From IMG/VR virus record IMGVR_UViG_3300031787_008915, positions 1 to 31,753 of that record: a stretch of DNA of 31,753 nucleotides; one strand, 5' to 3'. The notes below the pieces were generated by a model, which was not told the origin of the DNA, searched no databases, and was given only the letters and a program-made list of their open reading frames with translations. Origin of the DNA: a virus. The position numbers and the translations under genes were made by a program. Below, piece by piece: positions 2,765 to 24,637 of this stretch. How positions within the stretch are numbered: position 1 is the first letter of the stretch; every line of letters begins with the position of its first letter.

Positions 2765-2956
2765 TTACCTTTTATTTATAAATGTTAGATCTCCTAAGTT
2801 ATTAGGGCTCTCAATCTTTTGAGTGGATTCGAGTCCTTGTAAAATTTTTAAATCAACAATGTCAATAGGAACAGGGGATTCGTCTAATGTAGGTGCAACA
2901 TTTGCTTTTGCTTTTAAATTTCCACCGCCTAAACGACTATTAGAAAGTGTTTGCAT
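2765..2956 (-). CDS. Hypothetical small protein downstream of gp41 (63 aa)
   Basis: Unrecognised 63-residue protein beginning MQTLSNSRLGGGNLKAKANV. It is rich in Asn, Leu, Pro and Ser and probably largely disordered. It starts right after the helicase gene with an AAGGAT ribosome binding site, which supports it being real and co-transcribed with gp41. Its 3' end contains the TATAAATA late-promoter match that serves the next gene. Confidence 0.6.
   Translation of the reverse strand: MQTLSNSRLGGGNLKAKANVAPTLDESPVPIDIVDLKILQGLESTQKIESPNNLGDLTFINKR
2773..2780 (-). promoter_or_regulatory. T4-type late promoter (TATAAATA)
   Basis: The minus strand reads TATAAATA at 2780-2773, the exact T4 late -10 element recognised by gp55-programmed RNA polymerase. 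It lies 26 bp upstream of the HExxH gene start, inside the 3' end of the preceding small gene. The neighbouring bases make the site partly palindromic (ATTTATAAAT), so chance cannot be excluded in AT-rich DNA. Confidence 0.55.
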
Positions 2957-5746: not shown

Positions 5747-6556
5747 GTCATTCTTACCGCACTTTGCCCTTTTATCTTTGGTCAATTTGCCAAAGTCAAC
5801 TTTCCATTCTGAACCAGGTGCTAGTTCTGTTCCCTTTTTAGGAGTAACAAAATTAATACCTGCCTGTTTTCTAATATCATCTACACGTAAACGATATTTT
5901 GTTAAATCATTTCCTAAATTAGGATAAGGTGCAACGTGGGGGAACATCCAACCTGCATATTCGCCTGTCTTATTGTTAATGACAATTTTATAATATGCAG
6001 TAGGAACAATTACTCCCGATCCAATTTTTTTATCCTTATCAGTATAGATACCGCCGCCGATAACATTATATGAATTATTTGTTTGCGATGCCCAACCTCT
6101 AACAGAAGTTTCAAGTAGTTTCCAAATGCCTCTGTTTAATGAACCAGCTTGAGGAACCATGTTTGTCATTAAGAATGATTCATATTCTATTTGTTGATCC
6201 CATGATAAATCGCCATCTGGTACTACGTGGCCTTTATCATATCCTGTGCCTGCATAGTCTTCAGGTTTTGGACCATTCTTAATAGATTTGTCTGCGACAA
6301 AAGCATTTGTTCTTGCAATGCAACCAATAGCATTGTCGGGTTGCAAGGTGTAAGCTACATACGCTGGAATTTTTGCAGTAGGATCATATGCGACAAGAAA
6401 AGCATGTCTGCAAATAGGTTGTAATTCTTTCTTTGTTTCTGCAAATCCATATGGTGCGTGTATTCTACATTCCTGTACAGGTAGGGGAGCTCTTTGTTCC
6501 CAAGCTTGTACCGATAACCCTGCGAATAATATAAACGCAATTAATAATTTTTTCAT
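5744..6556 (-). CDS. Secreted DNA/RNA non-specific endonuclease (NUC1/EndoG family)
   Basis: A 270-residue protein with a Sec signal peptide (MKKLLIAFILFAGLSVQA, likely cleavage after residue ~18). The beta-beta-alpha-metal nuclease core follows: DKGH at 107-110 (family DRGH, His110 as general base) and NMVPQAGSLNRGIWKLLE, where Asn141 is the expected Mg2+ ligand. Four cysteines (30, 49, 79, 266) could form disulfides, in keeping with export. The protein should therefore act in the periplasm or outside the cell on DNA or RNA without sequence preference. Its start overlaps the gp43 stop (ATGA), so it is translationally coupled to the DNA polymerase. Why a replication operon carries an exported nuclease is unclear; possibilities include superinfection exclusion or scavenging. 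Confidence 0.88.
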   Translation of the reverse strand: MKKLLIAFILFAGLSVQAWEQRAPLPVQECRIHAPYGFAETKKELQPICRHAFLVAYDPTAKIPAYVAYTLQPDNAIGCIARTNAFVADKSIKNGPKPEDYAGTGYDKGHVVPDGDLSWDQQIEYESFLMTNMVPQAGSLNRGIWKLLETSVRGWASQTNNSYNVIGGGIYTDKDKKIGSGVIVPTAYYKIVINNKTGEYAGWMFPHVAPYPNLGNDLTKYRLRVDDIRKQAGINFVTPKKGTELAPGSEWKVDFGKLTKDKRAKCGKND

Positions 6557-9045
6557 CCGAATAATCCTTCTAGTGTTGCTTGTGGTTTAGCAGACCAACC
6601 GATACCTGTTAATATTGTATTCATAGGTTCTAGAAAAGATTTGTCAAACATTTTTTCATAATCAATAAACTTTAATAGGTCTAATTCAGGAGGTATAACA
6701 GTATTGAATGCTATACAATTTTCGCCGATAGTGTTTGGTTCTTTTAGATAAACAAACTTGATCTTATCGCCTTCTTTAATCAGCTCATATTTCTTTCTCA
6801 AGTCATTCTTGTTGATATAGAAATTATAGAGCAAGGCTCCTCTGACATGCATCGGAGTAGCCTGTTTATATATATTGTTTCTGTCAGTATATTTTTCTAC
6901 TCCATTCACACCTCTAGGAAATGAAATATCTTCTGCCTTCATTTTTCTAAATTCTGTTTCAAAACCCAAGATATAAGATTGCAGTGTATTCTCATCTGAA
7001 GTAAGAACTAATTTAACAGCTTTGCGAAGAGCTTCTCGAATAGGTTCAGGAGTAGATGATCTAACAATCTCCAATCCCATAACCTTTAGCTTAGGCTCTT
7101 TATATGTAATGCCTTCATTATTATAAACATTCAAGGCATATCGTTTCTTAGCTACCCACACACCTGTCTCTGCAATTGCTTCTCGTTTAAATACAATTTT
7201 ATTCTGAAAGGCGTTGGTGTAATCAGATATCTCACCGCATACCTTATTCAACACCTCTTGAATTTTAGACTCACAAATTTTATCTAAGATATCTACAATC
7301 TTTTCTGGTTCTTTGCCTTTGTAGAATTTTTCTACAAGTGGATCTAAAGTAACATAACAAGAATCTGTATCCGAATAGAATGAATACTCGAAATCTTTGG
7401 TGCCACAAATTTTATTCAAATAATCATTTAGTGCTTTGCCGACCTTTTGAATAATATACTGACCCGATAGGGTAATGCCTTCTGCTACTCGGTCATCATA
7501 AAATCTAAAAAACTCATTGGCCATCGCACCGAATAAAGAATTCATCTGAATCTTACGAGCCATCTGAAAATTATTATACTTAGAAATTTCTTTTAACCAA
7601 ATTTTATCTTTTGATTCTTCATACTTGGCTTGTGCAACCAACATCAATTTTTTATACTGTTTTCGGTCATCGAATAACTTCTGAACAATCTCAGGAAATA
7701 TGCCTTGCTTGTCTGTAGTATAGCATACACCATTAGCCGCCATACAAAATTTACTTTCAACTAGATCAGATGTATCCACTGTGCCTTCAAGTAGTTCCGA
7801 TACTTTAATGTCTCGATATTTACTTTCTGTTGCCATTGTTTCTGGCGACATATTATACTGCATAATGATTGAAGGATACAAACTAGTTGCATCAAAAGAA
7901 ACAACCCATTTATATTTGCCTGGTCTAGGAGTTTGTACATATGCACCTGCAATAGATCTACCTTGCTTGCGTTCGTTCTGATGAACAATAATATTTTTCT
8001 TAAGAAGTTGATTGTAAAGAATACAGTCCCAAGTTCTTACTGCTGAGAAAATATCTACATAATTACATTTCGCATCATATGCCATTGTAAGAATCAACTC
8101 AATGAGTTTCATCTTTTCTTCTAGCTCGTCAACCAGTTCACAGTCGATTACGTTATATCGAACAAACTTTTGCCAATCGCCTTTCCAGAATTCATTGAAA
8201 GAAACAAACTCATCATAGTTTAATTTTTCTTTACCGAGTTCTACCTTGGCAATGTGATCTAATTTATATGACTCCTGATTGCCATAAGTAAACTTCTTAT
8301 ACAGATCAAGATAATCTAGAATAGCAATACCTAGAATTGAAAATGCAATAGACTCTTTCTGAAATCTTGTGATGCTCTTTTCCTCAACCACTTTCCAAGG
8401 CGAAAGTTTCTTCAAGGCATCATCACCTAACATTTTAGTAATACGATTACATAGATAAGGGATATCGAAAAACTCTACGTTCCAACCTGTGATAATATGC
8501 GGGTGATCCTCAGCAACATATTCTAAGAACTGAGATAATAGATCTACTTCATCCTTACAATGAACATAAGTATGTTTGTCATTTACTTTTTCACAAGGAT
8601 ATAGACCAAACGATACTATTTGCTTAGACACATAATCTTGTGTCGTAATAAGTAACACTTTTTCCTGAGGATTGCCCACATCAGGAAAACCATTCTCTGC
8701 GGATGTTTCAATATCAAGTGTCCATATTTTCAACTGAGACATATCAAATTCAACATCATCTTTAAAAGTGGATGAGATATACTGATAGGCATAATTCGTA
8801 TTTCCGTAGATCTCAAAACCCTCTACATCTTTATATAATTTCACATATTCTTTGGCGTCGTTAATGCTATCAAATTTAACCTCAGCAAGCGGTTTTCCAA
8901 ACAACGATTTGGCCGTTGCTTTATCTTTGTTCGGTACATATAAAGACGGTTTAAATGCTACTCGATCCTGTACTTTGTGTCCATTATTGACACCCCTGAC
9001 CAAAATATTATTACCATACTGATTAACGCTCGTATAAAACTTCAT
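6553..9045 (-). CDS. 43: DNA polymerase (T4 gp43-like, family B)
   Basis: An 830-residue family B polymerase with 3'-5' exonuclease (T4 gp43 is about 900). Exo I is LDIETS with Asp111 and Glu113, Exo II is ITGWNVEFFD around Asn189, and Exo III is YNVID (Tyr297, Asp301). Polymerase motif A is SFDATSLYPSI (Asp385), motif B has Lys498 to NSLFGA, and motif C is YSDTDS (Asp559, Asp561). The C-terminus (QATLEGLFG) is a short hydrophobic tail of the type that binds the sliding clamp. It starts at an ATG with AAGGG. The leader from its sigma70-type promoter is only about 26 nt, too short for an extensive T4-like operator hairpin. RegA (encoded at 12496-12930) may still control it. Confidence 0.97.
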   Translation of the reverse strand: MKFYTSVNQYGNNILVRGVNNGHKVQDRVAFKPSLYVPNKDKATAKSLFGKPLAEVKFDSINDAKEYVKLYKDVEGFEIYGNTNYAYQYISSTFKDDVEFDMSQLKIWTLDIETSAENGFPDVGNPQEKVLLITTQDYVSKQIVSFGLYPCEKVNDKHTYVHCKDEVDLLSQFLEYVAEDHPHIITGWNVEFFDIPYLCNRITKMLGDDALKKLSPWKVVEEKSITRFQKESIAFSILGIAILDYLDLYKKFTYGNQESYKLDHIAKVELGKEKLNYDEFVSFNEFWKGDWQKFVRYNVIDCELVDELEEKMKLIELILTMAYDAKCNYVDIFSAVRTWDCILYNQLLKKNIIVHQNERKQGRSIAGAYVQTPRPGKYKWVVSFDATSLYPSIIMQYNMSPETMATESKYRDIKVSELLEGTVDTSDLVESKFCMAANGVCYTTDKQGIFPEIVQKLFDDRKQYKKLMLVAQAKYEESKDKIWLKEISKYNNFQMARKIQMNSLFGAMANEFFRFYDDRVAEGITLSGQYIIQKVGKALNDYLNKICGTKDFEYSFYSDTDSCYVTLDPLVEKFYKGKEPEKIVDILDKICESKIQEVLNKVCGEISDYTNAFQNKIVFKREAIAETGVWVAKKRYALNVYNNEGITYKEPKLKVMGLEIVRSSTPEPIREALRKAVKLVLTSDENTLQSYILGFETEFRKMKAEDISFPRGVNGVEKYTDRNNIYKQATPMHVRGALLYNFYINKNDLRKKYELIKEGDKIKFVYLKEPNTIGENCIAFNTVIPPELDLLKFIDYEKMFDKSFLEPMNTILTGIGWSAKPQATLEGLFG

Positions 9046-9061
9046 TGGAAAACCCTTAGAC

Positions 9062-9069
9062 TATAAATA
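9062..9069 (+). promoter_or_regulatory. T4-type late promoter (TATAAATA) for the plus-strand block
   Basis: Exact TATAAATA on the plus strand, 56 bp upstream of the first plus-strand gene. It is the only late-type match oriented towards these genes. It lies between the gp43 start codon and the gp43 promoter, so late and early polymerases would compete for the same DNA. Confidence 0.7.
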
Positions 9070-9078
9070 TTAGTATAC

Positions 9079-9107
9079 ATTATATTATATAAACCAGTGG
9101 AAGTCAA
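9079..9107 (-). promoter_or_regulatory. Sigma70-type promoter of gp43
   Basis: Minus strand: -35 TTGACT (9107-9102), 17-bp spacer, -10 TATAAT (9084-9079). A second TATAAT (9089-9084) overlaps but would leave only 12 bp of spacer. It points towards gp43 and overlaps the 5' leader of the divergent late transcript. Confidence 0.85.
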
Positions 9108-9124: not shown

Positions 9125-9667
9125 ATGGCTGAAACAAAACCTCTATCAAGAAGCGAGCGCGAAGCTCAAATAAAAGATAAAGCGGGATGGGTAATTACGG
9201 TACTTGCTGCACTTTTGGCAATTAATACATTAATGGGCGGCAGCAATAGTAGCAAAGTTTTAAATAATACTATAGAAGCAAATAATACTTGGGCATTTTA
9301 TCAAGCAAAATCAATCAAGCAAACATTGACAGAAATGAAATATGATGAAGCCGTTGCTTCAAATAAAACAAAGAGCGCAGAAAACTTAAAAGCAAAAATA
9401 GATCGTTATGAAAGCGATCCAGCCACTGGCGAAGGCAAAAAAGAGTTAATGGCCAAGGCTCGTAAATTGGAAGACGATAGATCGATTGCTAAATCTCGTA
9501 GTCCATGGTATACATATGCGGGTAGTCTTTTTCAAATAGCTATTGTCTTGTTAACAGCAAGTATATTAGCCGTTAATACAAGATTATATTGGGCCAGTAT
9601 TGGCGTCGGAACAATTGCACTTTTATCTATGTCTCAAGCGATTTGGTTATTGGTACCTGCTATGTAA
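9125..9667 (+). CDS. DUF4337-like membrane protein (180 aa)
   Basis: Membrane protein resembling the DUF4337 family: an N-terminal transmembrane segment (residues ~20-38, AGWVITVLAALLAINTLMGG), the family-like stretch NNTWAFYQAKSIKQTL, a charged helical region (~65-120), and two C-terminal spans (~130-150 and ~155-176). The function of the family is unknown. It is the first gene of the only plus-strand block and follows a late promoter (9062-9069). The ribosome binding site is AAGGAG. Tandem stops TAA TAG separate it from the next gene, which is in the same frame. Confidence 0.8.
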   Translation: MAETKPLSRSEREAQIKDKAGWVITVLAALLAINTLMGGSNSSKVLNNTIEANNTWAFYQAKSIKQTLTEMKYDEAVASNKTKSAENLKAKIDRYESDPATGEGKKELMAKARKLEDDRSIAKSRSPWYTYAGSLFQIAIVLLTASILAVNTRLYWASIGVGTIALLSMSQAIWLLVPAM

Positions 9668-9670
9668 TAG

Positions 9671-10501
9671 ATGGATCCGTTTACCCTATTTGCTTTAGCC
9701 AACGGGGCAGTTGCTGCAGTTAAAAAGGGATGTCAATTATATAAAGATATCAAAAGTGCTACGGGCGATGTAAAAGCCGTACTCAAAGATCTCGATGATC
9801 AATTCAACAAAAAACATCCCCCAGATAAACCTGCCTCCGCCGCGGCTATTAAGCAATATAATGAAGAAAAAACTCGTGTCAAAGAGTTAAACAAACGTAG
9901 TGAAGAAACAACTAATCTTTATGCTGAGATTGGGGACTATCTTGGACAATACTACGACAACTATTTCAAATGCTTAGCAGTTCTAGAAGAAGAAGAAAAG
10001 CGAAGCAAAACTGAAGTCTACACTGGAGATGCCAGCTTAGCTAAACGAGCTCTGCAACGTGTTCTAATGAAAAAACAATTAGAACAAATGGGAACAGAAC
10101 TTCGTGAACTAATGATATATCAAAGCCCCAAAGAACTGGGGGCACTGTTTACTGACGTTGAAGAAATGACAAAAGAACTAGGTAAACAACAAAAAGTTCT
10201 TATTGCTAAACAAATGCAAGATGCAGCTAAAAAAGCTAAACAAAAAGCTGAACGCGCAGAAAAATATAAATTTGAAATTGGACTCATAATAGGATTTATT
10301 ATACTGTGCATAGTCATGGGAATTTTTTGGACATGGTTATATCATGATGCTAGAAAAAGACATCCCGAACTTTGGGAAGGCACATATCGAAATGAATTAG
10401 AAAAACATAAACGATATGAAGTCAATAAAATAAAAGATGCAATTAAATTATTAGACGAGCAGAATTACGAGAACAATAAAAAACTAATAACAGACGAATA
10501 A
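9671..10501 (+). CDS. Coiled-coil membrane-anchored protein (276 aa), function unknown
   Basis: Starts MDPFTLFALANGAVAAVKKG, an N-terminal pattern I recall from uncharacterised proteins of marine T4-like phages. A long charged helical section follows (~30-200), with likely coiled coil around 150-200 (KQLEQMGTELRELM, AKKAKQKAERAEK). One strong transmembrane helix lies at ~203-225 (IGLIIGFIILCIVMGIFWTWL), and the basic/acidic tail is also helical. Topology is probably N-in with a long soluble domain. No enzymatic motif. It begins immediately after the DUF4337-like gene and overlaps the next gene (TAATG), so it is translationally coupled. A role in lysis, envelope remodelling or virion structure is possible but unproven. 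Confidence 0.75.
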   Translation: MDPFTLFALANGAVAAVKKGCQLYKDIKSATGDVKAVLKDLDDQFNKKHPPDKPASAAAIKQYNEEKTRVKELNKRSEETTNLYAEIGDYLGQYYDNYFKCLAVLEEEEKRSKTEVYTGDASLAKRALQRVLMKKQLEQMGTELRELMIYQSPKELGALFTDVEEMTKELGKQQKVLIAKQMQDAAKKAKQKAERAEKYKFEIGLIIGFIILCIVMGIFWTWLYHDARKRHPELWEGTYRNELEKHKRYEVNKIKDAIKLLDEQNYENNKKLITDE

Positions 10502-10644
10502 TGAAAAACAAAAATAAATACACATTTTTGGAATGGGTATTTGAAAAAATTGGGCTTGCTAAATTTTTAATATATTTTTATTTTTTACTACTATTAATAT
10601 CCACAGGTGTACTAACATTTATATGGTGGTTAACCAAAAGATGA
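10501..10644 (+). CDS. Tiny membrane protein (47 aa)
   Basis: A 47-codon frame starting MKNKNKYTFLEWVFEKIG that overlaps the upstream stop as TAATG and ends as AGATGA, where the next ATG begins. The second half is a single transmembrane helix (FLIYFYFLLLLISTGVLTFI) followed by WWLTKR, giving a basic C-terminal end. The double coupling supports it as a true gene despite its size. Small one-span proteins between late genes can be holin or antiholin-like, but nothing here proves that. Confidence 0.6.
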   Translation: MKNKNKYTFLEWVFEKIGLAKFLIYFYFLLLLISTGVLTFIWWLTKR

Positions 10645-10919
10645 AATCAAGCACAGAAGCGGCATTGATAGTAACCGGCATACTTTCAACATTTATTATA
10701 GTACCAGCTTTAATTATTTTTTACTACGATTTGTTGTTGCTAATTACGGCTATCGGTCTTTTAGCGACATCTTTTATTTTAGTAATTTACTATTTCTATA
10801 TAGATATAAAAAAAGAAATAGAATTTAAAAAATATGAATTTGAGTTTGTAACTGAAAGGTTTAGAGGCGATCCAGAGAAACTTCGCTGGTATAAATTTTA
10901 TAGAGAATTTTTGGGATAA
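10641..10919 (+). CDS. Two-span membrane protein (92 aa)
   Basis: Starts MKSSTEAALIVTGIL at an ATG overlapping the previous stop (ATGA). An alternative start at 10623 adds six residues but lies inside the previous gene without a better ribosome binding site. Two adjacent transmembrane segments (~8-28 and ~31-53) are followed by a charged cytoplasmic-type tail with Lys/Glu/Phe-rich helix (IDIKKEIEFKKYEFEF). Function unknown. The small hairpin-topology membrane protein in a late unit is compatible with a class II holin, an inference only. Confidence 0.65.
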   Translation: MKSSTEAALIVTGILSTFIIVPALIIFYYDLLLLITAIGLLATSFILVIYYFYIDIKKEIEFKKYEFEFVTERFRGDPEKLRWYKFYREFLG

Positions 10920-10921
10920 GT

Positions 10922-11242
10922 ATGCTATCTAAAAAAGCAATTCTGACAATAACAACTGTGGTTGCTATTGCTGCTCCGTTGGTTCCCAAAACTGTCAATG
11001 TAAATATAACAGCAAAAGAAGGTACACAGATAACAGCAAAAGAAGGTACACGGGTAGAAAAATCCTATACTAGAGTCAGAACAATATGCGAATTATTTGA
11101 AAGTACTGTAGATAGTGGTCGCCAAGTCTGCAAGTATAAATGCAAAGATGGCGACAATGTGATTGTCTCAAAGGTTTATTATAATAGCGGTGCAGTGTGC
11201 ACCAAAACTATAGAAGAGACAGTTAAAAAGACTCAGCGCTGA
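10922..11242 (+). CDS. Exported or N-anchored small Cys-containing protein (106 aa)
   Basis: The N-terminus MLSKKAILTITTVVAIAAPLVP looks like a signal peptide or anchor. The mature part has an exact eight-residue duplication (ITAKEGTQ then ITAKEGTR), encoded by a 24-bp tandem repeat. Four cysteines in the C-terminal half (TICEL, QVCKYKCKDG, AVCTK) could form two disulfides, consistent with a periplasmic location. It is the last gene of the plus-strand block. Its stop codon lies in a 10-bp palindrome (11233-11242) shared with the stop of the convergent gene. Function unknown; a spanin-like or envelope role would fit the context but no lipobox is visible. Confidence 0.65.
   Translation: MLSKKAILTITTVVAIAAPLVPKTVNVNITAKEGTQITAKEGTRVEKSYTRVRTICELFESTVDSGRQVCKYKCKDGDNVIVSKVYYNSGAVCTKTIEETVKKTQR
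11006..11053 (+). repeat. 24-bp tandem duplication
   Basis: Two adjacent 24-bp units, 11006-11029 and 11030-11053, differ at one base (second last position). They are in frame and encode ITAKEGT twice. The near identity suggests a recent slippage event. Confidence 0.95.
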
Positions 11243-11538
11243 ATGCCGCCTGGGACAATTTGAATACCTGTACCAAAGATCATATTGTACTGGTTATAAA
11301 CATCTTCCTCTAACTCCGCAGTCCAAACAATAGCTTTCTTAAAGATCTCAATTTCGTGATCTTTAGTATATCCTGCGTATGGAATCAACGCCATTGAATG
11401 ATTATCGGGCGTAGACTTAGAAGCGACCAACATAACTGCACAGGGTTTTCTAACCTGAATTTTTTCGTTAGCTGCTTCTGAACTAATATCACCAATCACT
11501 TCCTCGCCTGTAACGAGTTTAATTACTCTAATTGCCAT
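11233..11538 (-). CDS. Sm-like (LSm-like) small protein (101 aa)
   Basis: Starts MAIRVIKLVTGEEVIGDI, which resembles the first strands of an Sm/LSm fold (strand, turn with Gly-Glu, strand). The rest is also beta-like (IQVRKPCAVMLVAS, HSMALIPYAGY) and ends IVPGGIQR. Similar short proteins occur in many T4-like phages and have no settled function; an RNA-binding role is inference from fold-like pattern. The ribosome binding site is AGGAT. It converges with the plus-strand block and shares a 10-bp palindrome at its stop codon. Confidence 0.6.
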   Translation of the reverse strand: MAIRVIKLVTGEEVIGDISSEAANEKIQVRKPCAVMLVASKSTPDNHSMALIPYAGYTKDHEIEIFKKAIVWTAELEEDVYNQYNMIFGTGIQIVPGGIQR

Positions 11539-14599: not shown

Positions 14600-15010
14600 T
14601 TAAGCGTCAAGTGCAACTCGGCGCCACTGTCCATCAACTTCAATCCACAGCCTATCATCTTTACCCACAGACATCTTTACATTATTTTGATTAGGAGTAG
14701 AAGCTCCATTCATAGATAATGCCGGAGATATAATATAACTTGAACCCATTGCAATATATCCATCACTAAAAGTAATAGGCGACGGAGGCGGAGGCGGAGG
14801 CGGTGGCTTATTGTTTGCTGTAAGAACTAAAGTTGTAGAACCTAGTGGGGCTAGGTGACTTATGTCCTCAGCAACAGTAGTACTATTAGCATCAGGTAAA
14901 CTGGGGCCAGCCATCTGGGCGGCTCTATCTTGTAGCAAAGCTGCACCATAGCCAGCACCCAGAGCGCCAAACAAACCGAAGCCTTTAATAAAAGAACGAC
15001 GTCCATTCAT
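14600..15010 (-). CDS. Twin-arginine-signal protein of unknown function, between gp45 and gp44 (136 aa)
   Basis: The N-terminus GRRSFIKGFGLFGALGAGYGA is a textbook Tat signal: R4-R5-x-F-I-K followed by a moderately hydrophobic Ala/Gly-rich helix and a likely cleavage or anchor near residue 30. A Ser/Thr-rich stretch, eight consecutive prolines (69-76) and a small C-terminal beta-like domain (MSVGKDDRLWIEVDGQWRRVALD) follow. It would be folded in the cytoplasm and exported. No catalytic motif is visible. Its start overlaps the gp45 stop as TAATG, so it is translated with replication proteins. Candidate roles are envelope decoration or a virion base protein, both speculative. Confidence 0.78.
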   Translation of the reverse strand: MNGRRSFIKGFGLFGALGAGYGAALLQDRAAQMAGPSLPDANSTTVAEDISHLAPLGSTTLVLTANNKPPPPPPPPSPITFSDGYIAMGSSYIISPALSMNGASTPNQNNVKMSVGKDDRLWIEVDGQWRRVALDA

Positions 15011-15666
15011 TATACCACCGAATCAGGTTCCATTGCGATAAAGTATTCCAATGCCTTTGTAGCATGCTTAAAGTGGAATGCTTTCTTTTTCGAGATTGTT
15101 ACGATATAAGAATCGGGAACAACTTTGAAGTTTTCAACTGCCATGTGGCAATCAAAAGAATGCTCGCTCTTACCGATAATTTTCTTATAGGTATTTGCAG
15201 TATCATTTTTCTTATCACCGATAGTCAAAGTAACATCATCACCTTTGCCTGAAATTGTAATAGTAGGTGCACTGGTAATTGCAGCTGCCTTCATAATCAT
15301 GTTCACATCTTCAGATGACAATGTGAATTGATAGTGATTGTCAACTTCGATACTTTTATCTGGCGCGGCAACAATAACTGTTGGGCTAGAATAGAAGTAT
15401 TCAAATTTGCCGTTGTCTTTAGAGATAGTCAAACTTTTATCACCGAATTCAACATTCTGATTTTCCATCAATGTTAGCAAAGCCAACAAAGAATTTAAAT
15501 CATATACTGCAACTTCTGCGGGGAAGTCTTCAGTAACATCCGCTTTCGCAAAGATGTTCTTAGCAGTACTAATTGTGGACAATGTCTTGCCCTTGCGAAT
15601 CAAAATGTTACTATTGATCGCAGCAAAGTTCTTTAGAACTTGGATTGTTTCATTACTAAATTGCAT
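15010..15666 (-). CDS. 45: Sliding clamp (T4 gp45-like)
   Basis: A 218-residue protein (T4 gp45 is 228). It has the two-domain PCNA-like pattern: start MQFSNETIQVLKNFAAINSN, linker VYDLNSLLALLTLM, and second half FTLSSEDVNMIMKAAAIT. As a trimeric ring it holds gp43 on DNA and, in T4, activates late transcription with gp33/gp55. That matters for the TATAAATA sites found here. The ATG has AAGGAG upstream and overlaps the stop of the DUF3310-like gene as TAATG. Confidence 0.94.
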   Translation of the reverse strand: MQFSNETIQVLKNFAAINSNILIRKGKTLSTISTAKNIFAKADVTEDFPAEVAVYDLNSLLALLTLMENQNVEFGDKSLTISKDNGKFEYFYSSPTVIVAAPDKSIEVDNHYQFTLSSEDVNMIMKAAAITSAPTITISGKGDDVTLTIGDKKNDTANTYKKIIGKSEHSFDCHMAVENFKVVPDSYIVTISKKKAFHFKHATKALEYFIAMEPDSVV

Positions 15667-15953
15667 TATTTAATCTCCTTGGTTTCAATGTCATGCACGT
15701 ATAACAGCATTAATGCATAGTGTAACACCTTTAGTATGTCTTGTCTATTCCTTCCGGCTTTCTTTCCATACCTTTGGACATATTTCATCACGTTTCCAAC
15801 CGTAAATCCAACACCATGTCCGCTGTCAATAATAAATTCGGTGGCTTGAAATTTATTCAATGAATAATGTTGACCATAAGTGGCATCTATATATTCTTTG
15901 AGTTGATTTAAAAGCTCACCCTCATTATACTTATAATTTAATTCTTTCTCCAC
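15666..15953 (-). CDS. DUF3310-type (SaV-like) protein (95 aa)
   Basis: Has the typical DUF3310 core: QATEFIIDSGHGVGF then VMKYVQRYGKK and ILKVLHYALMLLY. Proteins of this type are often labelled nucleotide kinase, but no P-loop is present and biochemical support is thin. The start is GTG at 15953; there is no Met before residue 56, and AAGGATG lies upstream. Its first bases overlap the end of the GT2-like gene by 16 bp. It links the glycan island to gp45 without a visible terminator. Confidence 0.75.
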   Translation of the reverse strand: MEKELNYKYNEGELLNQLKEYIDATYGQHYSLNKFQATEFIIDSGHGVGFTVGNVMKYVQRYGKKAGRNRQDILKVLHYALMLLYVHDIETKEIK

Positions 15954-16663
15954 GGGTATCCATCCTTATATTTTTTTTCCATCATTGCATTGCCCCACAA
16001 AAAGAAGTCGGCTTTGACCGAATCTTCTCTATTCCCAACTCTATAGTTTAACGTATATTTACCGTTGGTATCATATGTAAAACCATATTCTAAAAGTACT
16101 TGCATAATAATACGATCTACTTCTGGCTGGTCGTCGGGATGTCTTGCTCGTCGATACCACAGAGGTGATATTTGTACTGCGATAGGAGTTGGTAAAAAGT
16201 ATGCGCCAACATCTACAAATAATTCTTGTTCGCTTAAGCATGTAGGCCATTTACCTAAATTTTCACAATCATCTAAGCAGATATAATTACTATCTTTATC
16301 TACAATTTTTCTTAATGAGAACGCCCAGTCATTTGTTTCGCAGACTTTAACCAATGATTCTACATGGGTCGGCTCAATAAAATTGTCCTCATCTAAGAAC
16401 ATTACATAATCAGAATCAACTAAGTATGGTATTGCCCCATAAATTCTATGTCCATTGTATTGACTATGTCCTGTATTATAGGGCAATTGCATAATTGTAG
16501 TGTTAAGGCCCTTTGTTGCTGGTACTTTACCTGCAAAGTTTTCGCCGTCAATCACTATTAGATGCTCTACATTGTCGTATGTTTGTGCTGCAACAGATTT
16601 TCTATTCTCTTTAAGATAATGCGAACCCGTTGTAGGTGTAATGACTGTTACTTTTTTAGACAT
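15938..16663 (-). CDS. Glycosyltransferase family 2-like
   Basis: A GT-A transferase of 241 residues. The N-terminus KKVTVITPTTGSHYLKENRKSVAAQT matches the nucleotide-binding start of GT2 enzymes. VMFLDEDNFIEPTHVESLV holds the metal-binding acidic motif (Asp-Glu-Asp 91-93, equivalent to DxD). The later segments are variable and likely bind acceptor. Donor and acceptor are unknown. It overlaps the next upstream gene by 8 bp; the ATG is preceded by GAGGTAG. Confidence 0.85.
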   Translation of the reverse strand: MSKKVTVITPTTGSHYLKENRKSVAAQTYDNVEHLIVIDGENFAGKVPATKGLNTTIMQLPYNTGHSQYNGHRIYGAIPYLVDSDYVMFLDEDNFIEPTHVESLVKVCETNDWAFSLRKIVDKDSNYICLDDCENLGKWPTCLSEQELFVDVGAYFLPTPIAVQISPLWYRRARHPDDQPEVDRIIMQVLLEYGFTYDTNGKYTLNYRVGNREDSVKADFFLWGNAMMEKKYKDGYPWRKN

Positions 16664-17351
16664 AATTTACTACCTCAACTCCTTCAGGAATTCTTACCGG
16701 GATGCCGCCCATATTAGGCTTTCTTGCATCATGGAAAAATATTGCGCCATTGGTCAAACCTTTATAGTATAATTGAAATACTAAATTGTTTAAACCGCTA
16801 TTAATGACGTGCACTTCTTTTGCATTACAGATTGTATCTACATAATCTAACAAATCATCTGTATCTTCTTTTTGTGCTACGTGCTTCGGTAAATCAGATT
16901 TGATATTAAGAGAGAAGCTGCCATAACTACTTGCATCATGTATAAAGATATAGTCTTCGCCTAGCTTTTCTTTTATGTGATTATATAATACTTTAGAACC
17001 TTCTAAATTTGTGGGGAAAACAAATCTATCATACTCTGCCATAGGATCTACATTTGATGTTTCATAGAATGAATCTTCAAATCTATTATAATCGCAATTC
17101 TCAAATCCAACTCTTATTAAAGGATAATTTGTTTCTTGAGCGTACTTTAAAGTATCTGCATGGTCATCCTCAACACCTATAATATGGATATCAGGAAAGT
17201 CTTCGTATAAATGTTTTACTGTTTTAAGATATCTATTTTTGCAGATCAAATCTATATAATAGGTATCCGATAGGGAATGAACAAGACCATTACAAATAAA
17301 ATGGTCTCCTAATCCTGTATGATGGTGTACTATAATTCTTTGTTGTTTCAT
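16656..17351 (-). CDS. GT-B-like glycosyltransferase, heptosyltransferase-like (231 aa)
   Basis: The start RIIVHHHTGLGDHFICNGLV resembles the N-terminal Rossmann loop of heptosyltransferase/GT9-type proteins (GxGD). The second half has a phosphate-loop-like YIFIHDASSYGSFSLN and VINSGLNNLVFQLYYKG, similar to the NSG/PxH site of GT-B enzymes. At 231 residues it is shorter than complete GT9 enzymes (about 330), so it could be a reduced version. It is coupled to its downstream and upstream neighbours by short overlaps. Confidence 0.6.
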   Translation of the reverse strand: MKQQRIIVHHHTGLGDHFICNGLVHSLSDTYYIDLICKNRYLKTVKHLYEDFPDIHIIGVEDDHADTLKYAQETNYPLIRVGFENCDYNRFEDSFYETSNVDPMAEYDRFVFPTNLEGSKVLYNHIKEKLGEDYIFIHDASSYGSFSLNIKSDLPKHVAQKEDTDDLLDYVDTICNAKEVHVINSGLNNLVFQLYYKGLTNGAIFFHDARKPNMGGIPVRIPEGVEVVNYV

Positions 17352-17989
17352 TTTAAAGCTTGATTGTATACTGGGATATCGTTGCCGTCATATGTTTGTC
17401 CGATAAAATCTTTACCGATAAATTCATATGAATTCCTCATCCACATTGTTTCTTTAATGCCGTGCACCATTGCTGTATGCTGCAGGTTAGGCCAAACATA
17501 ATCCCTTAACCAAAATTGATCCATTAGATAAGTATGTTTTTTGTTATATTTAGATTGTTGCTCGATCATGTCTTTATCTAGACCATCCTTTATTCCCCAC
17601 ATACCTGCAAGAATAGGGAATTCGTAATGATTAGCGTGGTCTCGTATAACAGATAGTTTAGCATCTGATGCTAACCATTCATCTACAATTTGTTTTTCTC
17701 TTGCGGATAATCTTGAATCACAATCTCTGGATATTACAATAGTACCAGGTTTCATTGCGTCAAATCTCCAGAATGCTCCGAATGTAAAATCTGTTTCTGG
17801 TCTTATCCATACCTTTGTATTATCAAAAGCATTTAAAGCAGAGATGTATATTCCGGGAACATCTCTACCGCAATAAAACCTACATTCCCATTCTGGAAAA
17901 TATTTTTGTGCTAATTGTGCATTCCTAATAGCACCGACACAATATTTAGGATCCGTGCCCCACAGGCTGAATGATATAATCTTCTGCAT
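17348..17989 (-). CDS. Putative glycosyltransferase with DxD motif (213 aa)
   Basis: Starts MQKIISFSLWGTDPKYCVGA at the ATG 17989; a longer frame from TTG at 18031 adds 14 residues without family-like sequence. The segment GTIVISRDCDSRLSAREKQIVDEWL has a DxD-type site (Asp89, Asp91), and TFGAFWRFDAM precedes it, as in GT-A transferases. Donor and acceptor are unknown. The start overlaps the upstream gene by 44 bp and the stop overlaps the downstream gene as ATGA. Confidence 0.7.
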   Translation of the reverse strand: MQKIISFSLWGTDPKYCVGAIRNAQLAQKYFPEWECRFYCGRDVPGIYISALNAFDNTKVWIRPETDFTFGAFWRFDAMKPGTIVISRDCDSRLSAREKQIVDEWLASDAKLSVIRDHANHYEFPILAGMWGIKDGLDKDMIEQQSKYNKKHTYLMDQFWLRDYVWPNLQHTAMVHGIKETMWMRNSYEFIGKDFIGQTYDGNDIPVYNQALK

Positions 17990-18686
17990 AATATTTAGAT
18001 AATTTTTCTCTGTCACCTTTGATATAACCAAATGCCTCTTTTAAGTCTTTAGGCAATGAATCATATAGTTGCCACATTTCTTTTTCAGCCTGATCTGTAT
18101 TATAATTGGTTCCTCTAGGATGGTCAATAGTATGTGCGTAATCTCGGATAACTGGTCGTTGATTAATAAAACACAACGCGGGGAAAATAATATCCCAACC
18201 CCATCCCATTTTATATTTAGACATATCTATTTTACTCTCCTTGAACCAATTAATTACATCTTTGTGAATGAACCAACAAGTACAATCTGTGTTTGCTACA
18301 ATCTTTAACTTATCAACTGGAAAAGCCAAAGATTCAATATCAGTGCGGCTAGAATCATACCAAGTATAATCGACATTCGGAGCATAGATTCCCCAATCAG
18401 TTTGTTCAAAATATTTTTCAGCATCTGCATATAATTTATCCCAATTATCATATGAAGCATCGCCCTGAATATGGAATAGAACATCGCCGTCGAACAGTTC
18501 AATTGCCTTCATAAACTGATCTGTAAAATAACTGGACTCACCTATGTTATGCCAGTTATCTGCCTTAAGGAGATAATTGTCGTCGCTATTAATAATAATA
18601 GCATTTCTTTGAGATAATTGACGCTGTTTGTTTACTGTGTTATCAAATTGTCCGCGCCAATTAAAAATGAATGTTTGTATATTCAT
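17946..18686 (-). CDS. Putative glycosyltransferase of phage glycan cluster (246 aa)
   Basis: Family not recognised with certainty. The sequence begins MNIQTFIFNWRGQFDNT and has VLFHIQGDASYDNWDKL (possible metal site at Asp76) and IVANTDCTCWFIHKDVINWF, with GT-A-like alternation of strands and helices. Neighbourhood within eleven sugar genes and the pattern support a transferase. The ATG overlaps the GT10 stop as ATGA, with GAGAGAAG as ribosome binding site. It lacks a clear classical DxD. Confidence 0.55.
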   Translation of the reverse strand: MNIQTFIFNWRGQFDNTVNKQRQLSQRNAIIINSDDNYLLKADNWHNIGESSYFTDQFMKAIELFDGDVLFHIQGDASYDNWDKLYADAEKYFEQTDWGIYAPNVDYTWYDSSRTDIESLAFPVDKLKIVANTDCTCWFIHKDVINWFKESKIDMSKYKMGWGWDIIFPALCFINQRPVIRDYAHTIDHPRGTNYNTDQAEKEMWQLYDSLPKDLKEAFGYIKGDREKLSKYYAEDYIIQPVGHGS

Positions 18687-19570
18687 TCTTCTCTCATATC
18701 TATCTTGTTATATACAACAGCATCAAACCAATTCAAGAAGTTGTTGAGAATCATATAATCGCGAGGAATGCCTGAGGCAAGAGGCGGTGCAGATATAACT
18801 CTATTGTAGAGGTCTTCATCCGAATCCAATCGCATAACATAATCAATAACTTCATCTGTGTTATTGAAGTCATGTACATTAATAAAAGACTGTACATTGA
18901 AATCAGATGTTACGGTTGGGCTACCCCAGTAAATAGGAATAGTCCTTGCATAGAATGCGTGTAAAATTTTCTCTGTAGTATAACCGGGATATGAACCAGA
19001 TTCAAAACAGATATTAAATTTGCGCTTTGATAAAAAATCAATTTTAGCAACTTCGCCGTCGAGCTTTGCGTTGATGTTATTATACAACGGACCACCACTA
19101 TCTACTTTTTTAACAGCATTTAGCTTTTTAAAGAATTCATTACGCTCTTCACATTTAGGATTTGATACTACAAATGAAGCAAAGTCTGTTTTTAGTATAG
19201 GATTATGATCACCTAAGATATGATAATACTTATAATTAGTATTATGAATCATATCTAAAGACCACATATAGATTACAAACAAAGGCAAGCGATAGTGCCA
19301 GTTGTTAAAATTGTGGTCGAAGCTAATTGCGTAATGACAATCATAATCTTCTGGTCTTTGATTCTCACCTGTGTAGAAGATCTTGATACAATCCTTTTTA
19401 GAGAACTTTTTATTGTTAGTACCAAAATTAGCATCACCAAAAATTAAATAATCGGGAGTCTCTTTATCTACATCTACAATCTCAATATCAAATCTATTAG
19501 CTAATAGATTGTAAAAGAATTGCATTAAATGGTCATGGGTATCTGTAAACCCTAGTTTCAATTTCTTCAT
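18683..19570 (-). CDS. Alpha-1,3/4-fucosyltransferase-like enzyme (GT10)
   Basis: A 295-residue GT10 protein. The signature lies at ~185-217: KFNICFESGSYPGYTTEKI followed by HAFYARTIPIYWGSP, the GDP-fucose-binding region of the family (FEN...TEK...G.IP.Y.G). The upstream WSLD and SNPKCEERNEFFKKLN match the acceptor/N-terminal half. It transfers fucose (or a related 6-deoxy sugar) from GDP-fucose to an acceptor hexose or N-acetylhexosamine. The donor pathway (GMD and GDP-fucose synthase) is in the same operon. Coupled by ATGA overlaps on both sides. No membrane anchor, so it acts in the cytoplasm. Confidence 0.88.
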   Translation of the reverse strand: MKKLKLGFTDTHDHLMQFFYNLLANRFDIEIVDVDKETPDYLIFGDANFGTNNKKFSKKDCIKIFYTGENQRPEDYDCHYAISFDHNFNNWHYRLPLFVIYMWSLDMIHNTNYKYYHILGDHNPILKTDFASFVVSNPKCEERNEFFKKLNAVKKVDSGGPLYNNINAKLDGEVAKIDFLSKRKFNICFESGSYPGYTTEKILHAFYARTIPIYWGSPTVTSDFNVQSFINVHDFNNTDEVIDYVMRLDSDEDLYNRVISAPPLASGIPRDYMILNNFLNWFDAVVYNKIDMREE

Positions 19571-20541
19571 AGGCTGCTCACCAAAGTATCTAATGATTGA
19601 TTAATGTTTGCTATATCGTCGGCGGTCAATGTGTTAATGTCGCTGATAGGAACAATAGTGTATTCGCATTTATATTCTAAGCTATTAGACATTGTTTCTG
19701 TAGGCTTCTTTCCGCCTGTATGGAATGCTTCACCCCAGCTAACATTGTAGGACAAGAATTTCATATTAGGATTCATGTAATTTGTTTTTGTTTCGCAAAA
19801 TACAAATGGTCCAGAATTCTTACCAACAACAGCATTACAATTTTCACTCAAATAAGAGATTTCTTGTAGGTCACAAATGTTAACTTCTTTATCTTCCCAA
19901 GGAGCTCTTTTATCAACTACTTCAGTGTCGCCGATTACATCATCCGTAAACAAAACATTTTTCTGCTCTGTAGGAAATTTTGTAGTACAAATAAAATGTA
20001 CGTCAGGATATTCTTCGGCCAATGGATTAATAAAATCCTGCATATTGTCAGCAAAAGATTGTCCCGACTTAGGAGGACCATTACAAATTAGAACTTTCTT
20101 ATTTGTATTTTCTTTTAGATAAGAATCGATTTTAGTAACATCAAATTTACTAAAATCTATAGATGGCAGATAGAATTCTTTTTGTTCTTTCAAATAAAAC
20201 TCCACACCAAAGTGATCGTTAATTTGTGCAAAAATCTTTTCCCATTGATGCCACAATGAATTCATATTGATTCCACCGTGTTCGCAGAAAATATCCCAGA
20301 AACATCCGATCCAAGTATTAATATACAACACACCCTCATCTTGATAGAACGGTGTCTTTGGATCAAGATTTGTTGGCTCACCGACTAATGGAATATTCAA
20401 ATCCCTAGTTAGCTTAGGATGATTAAAGTGCATATACTCATAGGTATAGTCGGGCAACTCAGTTTGAATATGACGAATAAACTCTTTATGAGTCAATAGA
20501 TCGCCACGATGGTAGTGATTAAAGAATACTATCTTAGGCAT
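19567..20541 (-). CDS. GT-B-like glycosyltransferase or related sugar protein (324 aa)
   Basis: No exact family. The N-terminus PKIVFFNHYHRGDLLTHKEF resembles the opening loop of GT-B proteins. The central VLICNGPPKSGQSFADNM begins a second Rossmann domain, and NCNAVVGKNSGPFVFCETK looks like the C-terminal donor-binding site (NSG-P, as in heptosyltransferase-like enzymes). It is distantly similar in layout to the protein at 16656-17351. Overlaps GT10 by 4 bp and the 116-residue gene by 8 bp. Confidence 0.55.
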   Translation of the reverse strand: MPKIVFFNHYHRGDLLTHKEFIRHIQTELPDYTYEYMHFNHPKLTRDLNIPLVGEPTNLDPKTPFYQDEGVLYINTWIGCFWDIFCEHGGINMNSLWHQWEKIFAQINDHFGVEFYLKEQKEFYLPSIDFSKFDVTKIDSYLKENTNKKVLICNGPPKSGQSFADNMQDFINPLAEEYPDVHFICTTKFPTEQKNVLFTDDVIGDTEVVDKRAPWEDKEVNICDLQEISYLSENCNAVVGKNSGPFVFCETKTNYMNPNMKFLSYNVSWGEAFHTGGKKPTETMSNSLEYKCEYTIVPISDINTLTADDIANINQSLDTLVSSL

Positions 20542-20884
20542 TATCTACACCTTTATAAAGTTTAACGGAATCTTCTCGCAAAGATTTATTATGTTTAATT
20601 GCATCATCTACAATTAGATTAATTGCCTGTACATAACGAGGTCTTTTAACTTTAAAGCAAATATCGCATTTGCGTTTTAGTTCAGCAATTTCTTCTGCAG
20701 ATGTTGCTGCTTGAATAGCATCTTCTAGCATCCACATTCTGATATGGATAATTGCTAGCTTTTCAATAACTTCGCCAAGGTTGTCTGTTGCTACATATTC
20801 AGAATCTGGCAGACCGGTTTCTGCAAGTACACGGTCTACTGTTTCTTTAATAATTGATTCTATGCTCTCACCTAAATTTTTCAA
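20534..20884 (-). CDS. Small helical protein of the glycan cluster (116 aa), possibly DUF4254-like
   Basis: All-helical protein with the pattern KLAIIHIRMWMLEDAIQAA and CDICFKVKRPRYVQAINLIVDD. It weakly resembles DUF4254-like proteins found in LPS and phage glycan clusters; that link is tentative. It starts at TTG 20884, preceded by AGGAGA at good spacing, with no earlier Met. It overlaps the DegT-like gene by 17 bp and the GT-B-like gene by 8 bp. It may be a structural partner of the transferases. Confidence 0.6.
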   Translation of the reverse strand: MKNLGESIESIIKETVDRVLAETGLPDSEYVATDNLGEVIEKLAIIHIRMWMLEDAIQAATSAEEIAELKRKCDICFKVKRPRYVQAINLIVDDAIKHNKSLREDSVKLYKGVDNA

Positions 20885-22037
20885 AGATTTCTCCTACAAC
20901 CTGTTTTAAAAATGCCATGTCTTTTTCAGTTACAAAATGATTGTTGCCAACATATACGCCTTGATAGTTTACTATGTCTGCGTTTGTTACTGGTCGGTCA
21001 GTATCAATTTTATAATCTTTTAAGAATGGTTGTGTCAATAAATTACCCGCAACAACTGGTCTATATTCAATACCATATTTAACGAATACTTCTTTCATTG
21101 CCTTCATAATCTTAGGAGATCTACAAATGAAGGGGAAACTAAAGCTACTATTTGTTGGCGGATTCTTAATATTATAAAATAAAATAGGATAAGAGTCAAT
21201 AATATCTGTAAACAATTCGTGATTTCTTTTACGAATTGCAATCATTTTGTCCAGACGCTTTAATTGTGACATACCTAATACTGCACAAATTTCATGATTT
21301 CTAAAATTATAACCATCAGTAACAAACAAGAATTGTTTATCAATATCAGGATATGCTTTTGCATAATCATCGAATCTAGTAGACGCGCGAGCCATACCAT
21401 GACTACGTTTCATCTTCATTAGGTCATAAAGGTCGGTGTTGTTGGTCGATACCATGCCGCCTTCAATTGTAGACATATGGTGACCAAAATAGAAACTAAA
21501 TGTTGCACCTAAACTATCCGAGCCTCTTTTATTACCTATCGTATCAGTACAACCATGTGACTCACATACGTCATCTAAAAACAATGCTTTAGGGAATATC
21601 TTTTTCAAGCCTTCATTGTCTGCAGAAAATCCTAAAAGATGAGTAATGAATACTAATTTAATATCATGTTTCTTAGCAATTTTTCTAGCTTCGCTTAAAT
21701 CGAAACTAAAATCGTCAAATTCAATGTCGCAAAATATTGGCTCAAGACCAAGTTGCATAATAGGTGCAACATTCGTCATCCAAGTACAAGCAGGCACTAA
21801 AACTTTATCACCATTCTTTAATCCATACAGTTCTTTAACTGCAGCAATCAATAAGAAGTTAGCTGTACTACCAGATGATACAAACAATGAATGTTTAGCT
21901 CCGAGCCACTCACTCCATTCATTTTCAAACTGTTCTACTTTTTCTCCGAAGGTAAACTTCTTCGCAGTTAAAGTAAAATACGCCATTTTTAATCTATCCA
22001 TGTAGGTGATTGTCTCACCCATTAAAGGCCATCTCAT
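20868..22037 (-). CDS. DegT-family PLP enzyme with His at the Lys site: ColD-like sugar 3-dehydratase
   Basis: A 389-residue DegT/DnrJ/EryC1/StrS fold: VSSGSTAN (PLP phosphate loop, 53-60), VPACTWMTN, DDVCESHG (cofactor aspartate), and FSFYFGHHMSTIEGG. In aminotransferases of this family the last motif has the Schiff-base Lys six residues before the Glu (for example K in the VKPITTGEGG type). Here His186 stands at that place, next to His187. In characterised ColD, His replaces this Lys and the enzyme is a GDP-4-keto-6-deoxymannose 3-dehydratase using PMP and glutamate. Start chosen at ATG 22037 (ATGA overlap, AAGGGG upstream), not 22064. Substrate is inferred from the adjacent GMD gene. Confidence 0.82.
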   Translation of the reverse strand: MRWPLMGETITYMDRLKMAYFTLTAKKFTFGEKVEQFENEWSEWLGAKHSLFVSSGSTANFLLIAAVKELYGLKNGDKVLVPACTWMTNVAPIMQLGLEPIFCDIEFDDFSFDLSEARKIAKKHDIKLVFITHLLGFSADNEGLKKIFPKALFLDDVCESHGCTDTIGNKRGSDSLGATFSFYFGHHMSTIEGGMVSTNNTDLYDLMKMKRSHGMARASTRFDDYAKAYPDIDKQFLFVTDGYNFRNHEICAVLGMSQLKRLDKMIAIRKRNHELFTDIIDSYPILFYNIKNPPTNSSFSFPFICRSPKIMKAMKEVFVKYGIEYRPVVAGNLLTQPFLKDYKIDTDRPVTNADIVNYQGVYVGNNHFVTEKDMAFLKQVVGEIFEKFR

Positions 22038-22969
22038 AGCAACCCCTTTTCTTTCTTGTACCATTCTATGGTATTTTTTAATCCAACATCGAATGTAGTT
22101 TTAGATGACCAACCCAATGCTTTTAATTTACTGTTATCCATTTTACGTCTAGGTGTTCCGTTTGGTTTATCTTTGTTCCAAACAACTTTACCTGTAAAGC
22201 CATATTCTTTAGTAAGTTTCTTAACGAGATCTTTAATAGATAGTTCTTCATCGCTGCCAACATTGACAAATTCTGCTTCGTCATAATTTTGCATCAACCA
22301 GAAACAAGCATCTGCTAAATCATCTACGTATAAGAATTCTCTAGTAGGAGTACCATCTCCCCAACATTCTATTTCATTAGTTCCGTCACTTATAGCGTTT
22401 TGCATCTTAGTAATAATACCCGGAATAACATGACCATGCTCAGGAATGAAGTTATCATTCGGGCCATATAAATTTGCAGGCATGCAACTAATTGCGTTGA
22501 ATCCATACTGGCGTCTGTAATATTCGCACATACGTAGACCAGTAATTTTTGCTAGAGCATACCCCTCATTCGTAGGCTCAAGTGGAGCTGTAAGAAGATA
22601 TTCTTCTTTGATAGGTTGAGGGGTAACCTTTGGATAGATACAAGCTGAACCTAAGAATAATAATTTCTTAGCGCCATTGCGATATGCTGCATCTATAACA
22701 TTCGATTGAATTAATAAATTATCGTAGATAAACTCGCCAGGATTTGTCCAGTTCCAATTAATGCCACCAACTTTAGCAGCACATAGAAATACATATTCGG
22801 GGAGTTCGATACTAAAGAAGTTTTTAACTGCACGCTGATCTCGCAAATCTAATTCTGCTTTTGATCTTAAAATTAAATTGGTGTAGCCTTCTTCTTTTAA
22901 TTTTCTAACAATACCAGAACCAACTAATCCGTTGTGTCCTGCTACAAAAATCTTACTATTCTTTTCCAT
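22034..22969 (-). CDS. fcl: GDP-L-fucose synthase (Fcl/WcaG-like epimerase-reductase)
   Basis: A 311-residue extended SDR enzyme. GHNGLVGSGI (11-20) binds NADP(H). Ser108, Cys110, Tyr137, Lys141 and His180 correspond, each shifted by one, to the E. coli Fcl residues Ser107, Cys109, Tyr136, Lys140 and His179, so both the epimerase (Cys/His) and reductase chemistry look intact. LFLGSACIYPK, LEPTNEGYALAKI and PANLYGPNDNF are family hallmarks. It converts GDP-4-keto-6-deoxy-D-mannose to GDP-L-fucose; a close relative, ColC, acts on the 3-deoxy product. The ATG has GAGG upstream. Confidence 0.93.
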   Translation of the reverse strand: MEKNSKIFVAGHNGLVGSGIVRKLKEEGYTNLILRSKAELDLRDQRAVKNFFSIELPEYVFLCAAKVGGINWNWTNPGEFIYDNLLIQSNVIDAAYRNGAKKLLFLGSACIYPKVTPQPIKEEYLLTAPLEPTNEGYALAKITGLRMCEYYRRQYGFNAISCMPANLYGPNDNFIPEHGHVIPGIITKMQNAISDGTNEIECWGDGTPTREFLYVDDLADACFWLMQNYDEAEFVNVGSDEELSIKDLVKKLTKEYGFTGKVVWNKDKPNGTPRRKMDNSKLKALGWSSKTTFDVGLKNTIEWYKKEKGLL

Positions 22970-22976
22970 TTTTACC

Positions 22977-23621
22977 TCATCTTAATGTGAACAAAAAATC
23001 ATGTTCTGATAATTGTTCTGCTAATGTATGAGTATTTCCTACACGAGCAATTATATCTTTAATATCTTCATGCCATTCTATAAGCAATATTTTTGGCAAA
23101 TATTTGTCTATAGAAAATCCATCCAACACCTCTAGTTCATATCCTTCTACATCTAATGAGAAAAAGTCTACATTATCTACATTACATTCTTCTAGAATAG
23201 AATCCAACGTTCGACAGTTCACAGTGAATTCATATTTAATTTCTTCTTCATCTAAAGCACAAGCTTTAGCAACCCATTTATCACTTTTCCAAATAGAAGA
23301 ATCTTTTGTTGCGGACATTAATCCCGGATCATCTGAGAAAACCCTACGATGAACCATAGTTATTTCTGTATTAGGATTGGATTCACTCACCAAAGCATTA
23401 TTGAACACTTTAGATTTTGGTCTATTGCCAACACAAACTTCAAATGCTTCCTGATTAGGTTCTATAAGAATGCCTGTCCAATTTTTATATTTTTCGAGGT
23501 ACCAGGTGTTGCTTTGCGTATATCCATCAGCTCCACCAACCTCAATAAAAAATCCGGAATTATAATTTAAATACTTTTCCGTAACTATTCTGTTTATGTC
23601 TTTGTATGAAGGAGGAAACAT
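22977..23621 (-). CDS. FkbM-family methyltransferase
   Basis: SAM-dependent methyltransferase of 214 residues from the ATG at 23621; a TTG at 23630 would add three residues. Motif I is FFIEVGGADGYTQSNTWYLE, a later acidic motif is ILIEPNQEA, and DFFSLDVEGYELEVLDGF is the FkbM hallmark. FkbM enzymes O-methylate sugars or glycolipid groups, and they are common in glycan clusters; here the likely substrate is a sugar hydroxyl made by the cluster. The start overlaps the GMD stop region (TAATATG), and the ribosome binding site is weak. Confidence 0.85.
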   Translation of the reverse strand: MFPPSYKDINRIVTEKYLNYNSGFFIEVGGADGYTQSNTWYLEKYKNWTGILIEPNQEAFEVCVGNRPKSKVFNNALVSESNPNTEITMVHRRVFSDDPGLMSATKDSSIWKSDKWVAKACALDEEEIKYEFTVNCRTLDSILEECNVDNVDFFSLDVEGYELEVLDGFSIDKYLPKILLIEWHEDIKDIIARVGNTHTLAEQLSEHDFLFTLR

Positions 23622-23622
23622 A

Positions 23623-24636: not shown

Positions 24637-24637
24637 A

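Follow-up and report, generated by a model that had tools for sequence, protein, structure and literature searches.

Since we know of no well-understood route from early to late transcription in T4-like phages without MotA and AsiA, the short stretch in front of the DNA polymerase gene gp43 described here raises the question of whether two overlapping promoters could by themselves provide such a handover. The window, that is, the whole stretch of DNA analysed, is a 31.7 kb IMG/VR fragment (31,753 nucleotides) of a T4-like phage, which encodes gp43, UvsX, a gp41-like helicase, the clamp loader, gp45, RegA, Hsp20, and a gp46-like gene. The closest relatives come from uncultured viral contigs; in phage isolates, no gp43 reaches 60% identity to the one of the window.

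According to the original prediction, an early gp43 promoter on the minus strand and a late promoter on the plus strand lie within 46 bp upstream of gp43, and the letters, the strands and the 17-bp spacer all match the window sequence, in which TTGACT-17-TATAAT is read on the minus strand from 9107 to 9079 and TATAAATA on the plus strand from 9062 to 9069. The features of the region are as follows.

6553..9045, minus strand: gp43, family B DNA polymerase (phrog_262, E=0)
9046..9072, minus strand: expected gp43 leader with an AAGGG ribosome-binding stretch, from the sequence and a start placed by its spacing from the -10 element
9062..9069, plus strand: predicted gp55-type late promoter -10 element TATAAATA; NATAAATA in 15 of 15 distinct homologous gp43/DUF4337 intergenic sequences; the motif precedes head and tail genes in a 222 kb relative
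9079..9084, minus strand: predicted sigma70-type -10 element TATAAT of the gp43 promoter, its 17-bp spacer kept in relatives
9102..9107, minus strand: predicted sigma70-type -35 element TTGACT of the gp43 promoter; TTGACA, TTGACT or TTGATT with a 17-bp spacer upstream of gp43 in relatives
9125..9667, plus strand: DUF4337 membrane protein of 180 aa, first gene of the plus block (PF14235, E=1.2e-32)
9671..10501, plus strand: 276-aa gene with a hydrophobic segment near the C terminus; homologues in 74 related loci, some adjoining gp43
10623..10919, plus strand: 98-aa hydrophobic protein of the plus block
10922..11242, plus strand: 106-aa protein of the plus block with a signal-peptide-like start; homologue in the block of the 222 kb relative
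11233..11538, minus strand: 101-aa gene at the far edge of the divergent cassette (phrog_527)
15010..15666, minus strand: gp45 sliding clamp, expected to activate late transcription (phrog_223, E=1.1e-63)

By the usual spacing rules, transcription would be expected to start at about 9072 on the minus strand and at about 9075-9076 on the plus strand, that is 3-4 bp apart, which agrees with the claim that the start points lie only a few bases from each other. The late promoter element sits inside the expected gp43 leader, and the two promoters are more than back-to-back: with these expected starts they are crossed, in the way that each -10 element falls within the first transcribed bases of the other promoter. 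In the window, these are two separate -10 elements with 9 bp between them and not a single pseudo-symmetric one common to both directions. Between the promoters, no conserved block beyond the promoter and ribosome-binding elements was seen in intergenic alignments inspected by eye only, an inspection that a weak or host regulator could escape.

The classes of the two sites can be judged from relatives, in particular from G001, the 222 kb relative, whose gp43/DUF4337 arrangement matches that of the window. In G001, ATAAATA occurs at 71 sites and is the rarest of its 21 permutations, while 37 copies lie at most 120 nt before a start codon, the most of all permutations, and 20-40 nt is the commonest distance; among others, it stands in front of the genes for the major head protein, the scaffold, the tail tube, the tail tube cap, and the tail fibres. 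Besides, gp55 was found in 7 of 8 relatives, none being seen within the 31.7 kb window fragment, which does carry gp45. The site thus resembles the T4 late promoters (TATAAATA; gp55, gp33, gp45) in its motif, in having no -35 element of its own, and in the accompanying gp55 and gp45 homologues (PMC2988020). As for the early side, perfect TTGACA/TATAAT sites number 24 on the minus strand of G001 and 0 on the plus strand; 15 of the 24 lie at most 150 nt from a start codon, and such sites precede gp43, a CobS-like ATPase gene, a MazG-like gene, and other early-type genes. The conservation of the hexamers and of the 17-bp spacer upstream of gp43 is that of a sigma70 early promoter. MotA and AsiA were not found in seven relatives, both being detected in T4 as a positive control. 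That both sites are genuine promoters of the predicted classes is very probable.

A few further candidate promoters are worth recording. The other TATAAATA of the window (2773-2780, minus strand) stands 25 nt before a 170-aa gene (2235-2747), where a late promoter is canonically placed. TAGACA-17-TATAAT (5746-5718, minus strand), about 25 nt before uvsX, is a likely early promoter, and at the corresponding position of G001 these hexamers stand before a 360-aa gene. In that genome, two further divergent blocks start from crossed late/late pairs, ATAAATA-N13/15-TATTTAT, located as follows.

L168:10340-10366: crossed late/late pair of G001, 13 bp between motifs
L173:7507-7535: crossed late/late pair of G001, 15 bp between motifs

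By counting alone, neither site is exceptional. TATAAATA was observed twice in the window against 4.87 expected, so that 8-mer counting was set aside as uninformative, and 37 sigma70-like sites were found in 9 kb against 36.8 expected, the gp43 site being among only four that score 11/12. A chance match in A/T-rich DNA would fit with TATAAATA falling below its expected count, but it is conservation that lifts the site above chance: once the motif was relaxed from the exact TATAAATA to NATAAATA, the relatives having C or A at the first base, it was present in 24 of 24 divergent gp43 upstream regions, against a shuffle mean of 5.3, a shuffle maximum of 14, and 11 for the next permutation. This comparison statistically refutes a chance origin, which is left with next to no probability.

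The crossed arrangement is itself conserved. TATTTAT lies crossed, 17-21 nt before the gp43 start, in 17 lineages, defined by a pairwise four-fold-site identity below 0.75 (mostly 0.35-0.6); crossing is the layout of most lineages, and there 7-10 bp separate the two -10 motifs. When near-identical relatives are set aside, the motif is invariant while the four-fold sites of gp43 are only 28-59% identical to those of the window. The sequence thus bears out the original prediction as regards two promoters, very probably of the stated classes, whose overlap is kept in 17 lineages with silent sites mostly diverged or saturated; its regulatory part, in which the late polymerase would shut off gp43, is plausible. 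The crossing itself, its wide recurrence, and the exchangeable look of the plus block go beyond that prediction. In three lineages (L065, L104, L116), the two sites are back-to-back and not crossed, the late motif being upstream of the gp43 promoter. In three others (L129, L132, L140), and only there, the late motif and the gp43 -10 element merge into one sequence (TATTTATAAT), and a single stretch would serve both sigma factors. Two late motifs, at -26 and -115 from gp43, point toward a divergent RCC1-like gene in L121 and L125.

The late motif also follows the gene that it faces. Among 45 distinct gp43 loci, gathered by protein similarity alone and with relatedness only partly controlled, it is found correctly oriented and at most 80 nt from gp43 in all 26 with a divergent upstream gene, and in none of the 19 where the upstream gene is co-directional or a tRNA gene. 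The motif-less loci belong mostly to one gp43 clade, L120 being the only close independent one. Seven motif-less loci had been scored as divergent by a nearest-gene script and were rejected as spurious: in five, the supposed neighbour is an antisense ORF inside gp43 and the true neighbour is co-directional, and in L136 and L137 the ORFs are antisense to co-directional tRNA genes.

Most of the divergent genes have no relation to one another; they comprise DUF4337, a family of 259-aa proteins related to the second plus-block gene of the window, asparagine-rich proteins with a common C terminus, RCC1-like and glycine-rich proteins, and a GH19-like lysin. Where present, the block falls between the conserved 101-aa gene and gp43, and the distance between these two is 1.7-3.5 kb in the divergent lineages, about 500-760 bp in the more distant co-directional clade, and 155 bp in L120. 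The latter represents a close "empty site", in which TTGACA-17-TATAAT is kept for gp43 while both the late motif and the block are missing. The late half of the site therefore accompanies the cassette. The plus block has the appearance of an exchangeable cassette, which may have been gained in some lineages or lost in others.

With regard to known phages, no phage isolate was found to have the gp43/DUF4337 pair, as DUF4337 itself has no match in the isolate collection, and no paper found in the literature search pairs DUF4337 with a phage; in viral contigs, 478 stretches related to DUF4337 are present. gp43 is co-directional with its neighbour in all annotated isolates examined, and T4, S-PM2 and phiM7, where gp43 follows a co-directional gene, differ from the present locus in having no divergent late gene at gp43. 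Since no alignment was obtained between the 101-aa gene and S-PM2p135, the case for synteny with cyanophages is based on RegA and Hsp20.

Overall, it is more probable than not that the composite crossed site sets an early gp43 start against a late block and works as a handover without a regulator, with negative feedback on gp43. Host sigma70 polymerase would start gp43 early from the minus-strand promoter, and gp55-directed polymerase, expected to need gp33 and the DNA-loaded gp45 clamp, would start the DUF4337 block late from the plus-strand promoter. Because the first bases transcribed from either promoter would include the -10 element of the other, only one polymerase at a time would open the site, and each departing polymerase would cross the other promoter. 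Such mutual exclusion is sterically near-certain from the geometry, as two polymerases cannot open overlapping bubbles. Late firing, dependent on gp45 loaded during replication, should then cut the number of gp43 starts, since the promoters would exclude or overrun each other; the outcome would be an early-to-late handover and a brake on the DNA polymerase gene, and the late half of the composite goes with the late gene cassettes located between the 101-aa gene and gp43. Transcription of the minus-strand operon further upstream might also run on across the plus block into gp43.

The same two promoters could be real and overlap through tight genome packing only, with no regulatory effect worth selecting. 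The 79 bp gap between gp43 and DUF4337 in the window, the 94% coding density of G001, and the three back-to-back lineages are in line with this explanation, as are the late/late pairs of G001, which may reveal a general habit of crossing. Packing accounts less well for four lineages (L090, L121, L129, L132) in which 132-163 nt separate gp43 from the called divergent gene, although short uncalled ORFs may begin earlier in some, and in which the late motif still lies 26-34 nt before gp43. Nor does it readily explain why the late motif of the window stands about 55 nt from its own gene, beyond the usual 20-40 nt. An overlap due to packing alone is, on balance, unlikely. As to whether the crossed layout was selected as a regulatorless switch, in which replication-loaded gp45 would bring in the late polymerase, gp43 would be shut by occupancy and read-over, and the layout would be kept while the cassette is swapped, this is a tentative reading with a chance below even.

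Two other explanations give the motif a different role. It could mainly silence gp43 through interfering late transcription, provided that late transcription of the divergent genes starts, or can start, from other promoters. This idea draws on L121 and L125, where a second TATAAATA at -115 stands at the canonical distance to the divergent gene and the -26 copy is nevertheless kept; two motifs are seen in that lineage only, however; elsewhere, no late motif other than the overlapping one was seen in the intergenic stretch, and where no divergent gene is present the motif is missing too, which makes a silencer improbable. Alternatively, TATTTAT could be an RNA element of the gp43 leader, involved in RegA action or mRNA decay, and not a promoter on the opposite strand. 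In most lineages, only 17-21 nt separate it from the start codon of gp43, which would suit such a role, as would the presence of the RegA gene in the window, but the motif is absent where the upstream gene is co-directional, and in the three back-to-back lineages the copy lies upstream of the promoter, outside the gp43 mRNA, and still faces the divergent gene. An RNA element is accordingly very improbable.

The favoured reading, a crossed early/late site acting as a handover, has partial counterparts in known systems. Overlapping early and late promoters have been described in RB49 and in the marine cyanophages S-PM2 and Syn9 (PMC2984593). RB49 and S-PM2 are likewise T4-like phages without motA and asiA that combine a sigma70 early and a NATAAATA late site at one gene, but their pairs are described as serving that same gene, with middle-like expression, whereas here the sites are on opposite strands and serve different genes (PMC2984593). 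In phi29, the A2c/A2b-A3 region is likewise a short control region, where early promoters lie together with a late one and the two kinds are switched reciprocally; this switch, however, depends on phage proteins p4 and p6 and uses one host sigma, while in the present case the sites overlap, two sigma factors are implied, and no regulator was seen (PMC3100819). Comparable in geometry are the bidirectional promoters of E. coli, with divergent starts a few bp apart where opposing polymerases cannot bind together, and where activating one direction can repress the other through polymerase competition (PMC12825309). These rely on one pseudo-symmetric -10 element and one holoenzyme, with starts that are commonly separated by 10, 18 or 23 bp (PMC12825309), in contrast to the two -10 elements, two sigma classes and crossed layout found here, with starts that we infer to be about 3-4 bp apart. 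In E. coli, competition matters only with one direction strongly activated, basal activity being too weak (PMC12825309), and an effect on gp43 would therefore need strong late firing; in T4, late transcription activated by gp45 represents a strong activation of this kind (PMC2988020).

The crossed layout recurs widely, as judged from a scan of viral contigs for TTGACA-N17-TATAAT-N7-10-TATTTAT in which the fractions of attached genes were compared with those of a permuted motif. Among the matches listed, a divergent start stands beside 42 of 66 composite sites compared to 14 of 71 control sites, and starts are present on both sides of 29 of 66 and 5 of 71, respectively. Many of the composite matches listed are directly at gp43, and others are at different early/late boundaries, for example beside a tail tube gene. 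The composite pattern could also serve as a signature for locating early/late boundaries in uncultured phages, and the conserved site at gp43, where the late polymerase would have to displace the early one, offers a concrete and testable handover point.

Some minor observations concern the surrounding genes. A sugar/glycan gene cluster (15938-25465, minus strand) lies within the replication region of the window and includes GT2 and GT10 (fucosyltransferase) glycosyltransferases, an aminotransferase, and nucleotide-sugar epimerases. In 7 relatives (L029, L034, L052, L054, L078, L079, L083; see also L174:538-1143), DUF4337 is directly preceded by a GH19-like lysin gene in the same orientation, a neighbourhood that hints at a part for DUF4337 in lysis or in the envelope; such a gene is also present in G001, at another place. 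Finally, DUF4337 genes located away from gp43 (L055, L057, L067, L071, and others) often have CTAAATA upstream and not ATAAATA, possibly a late-motif variant of other lineages.
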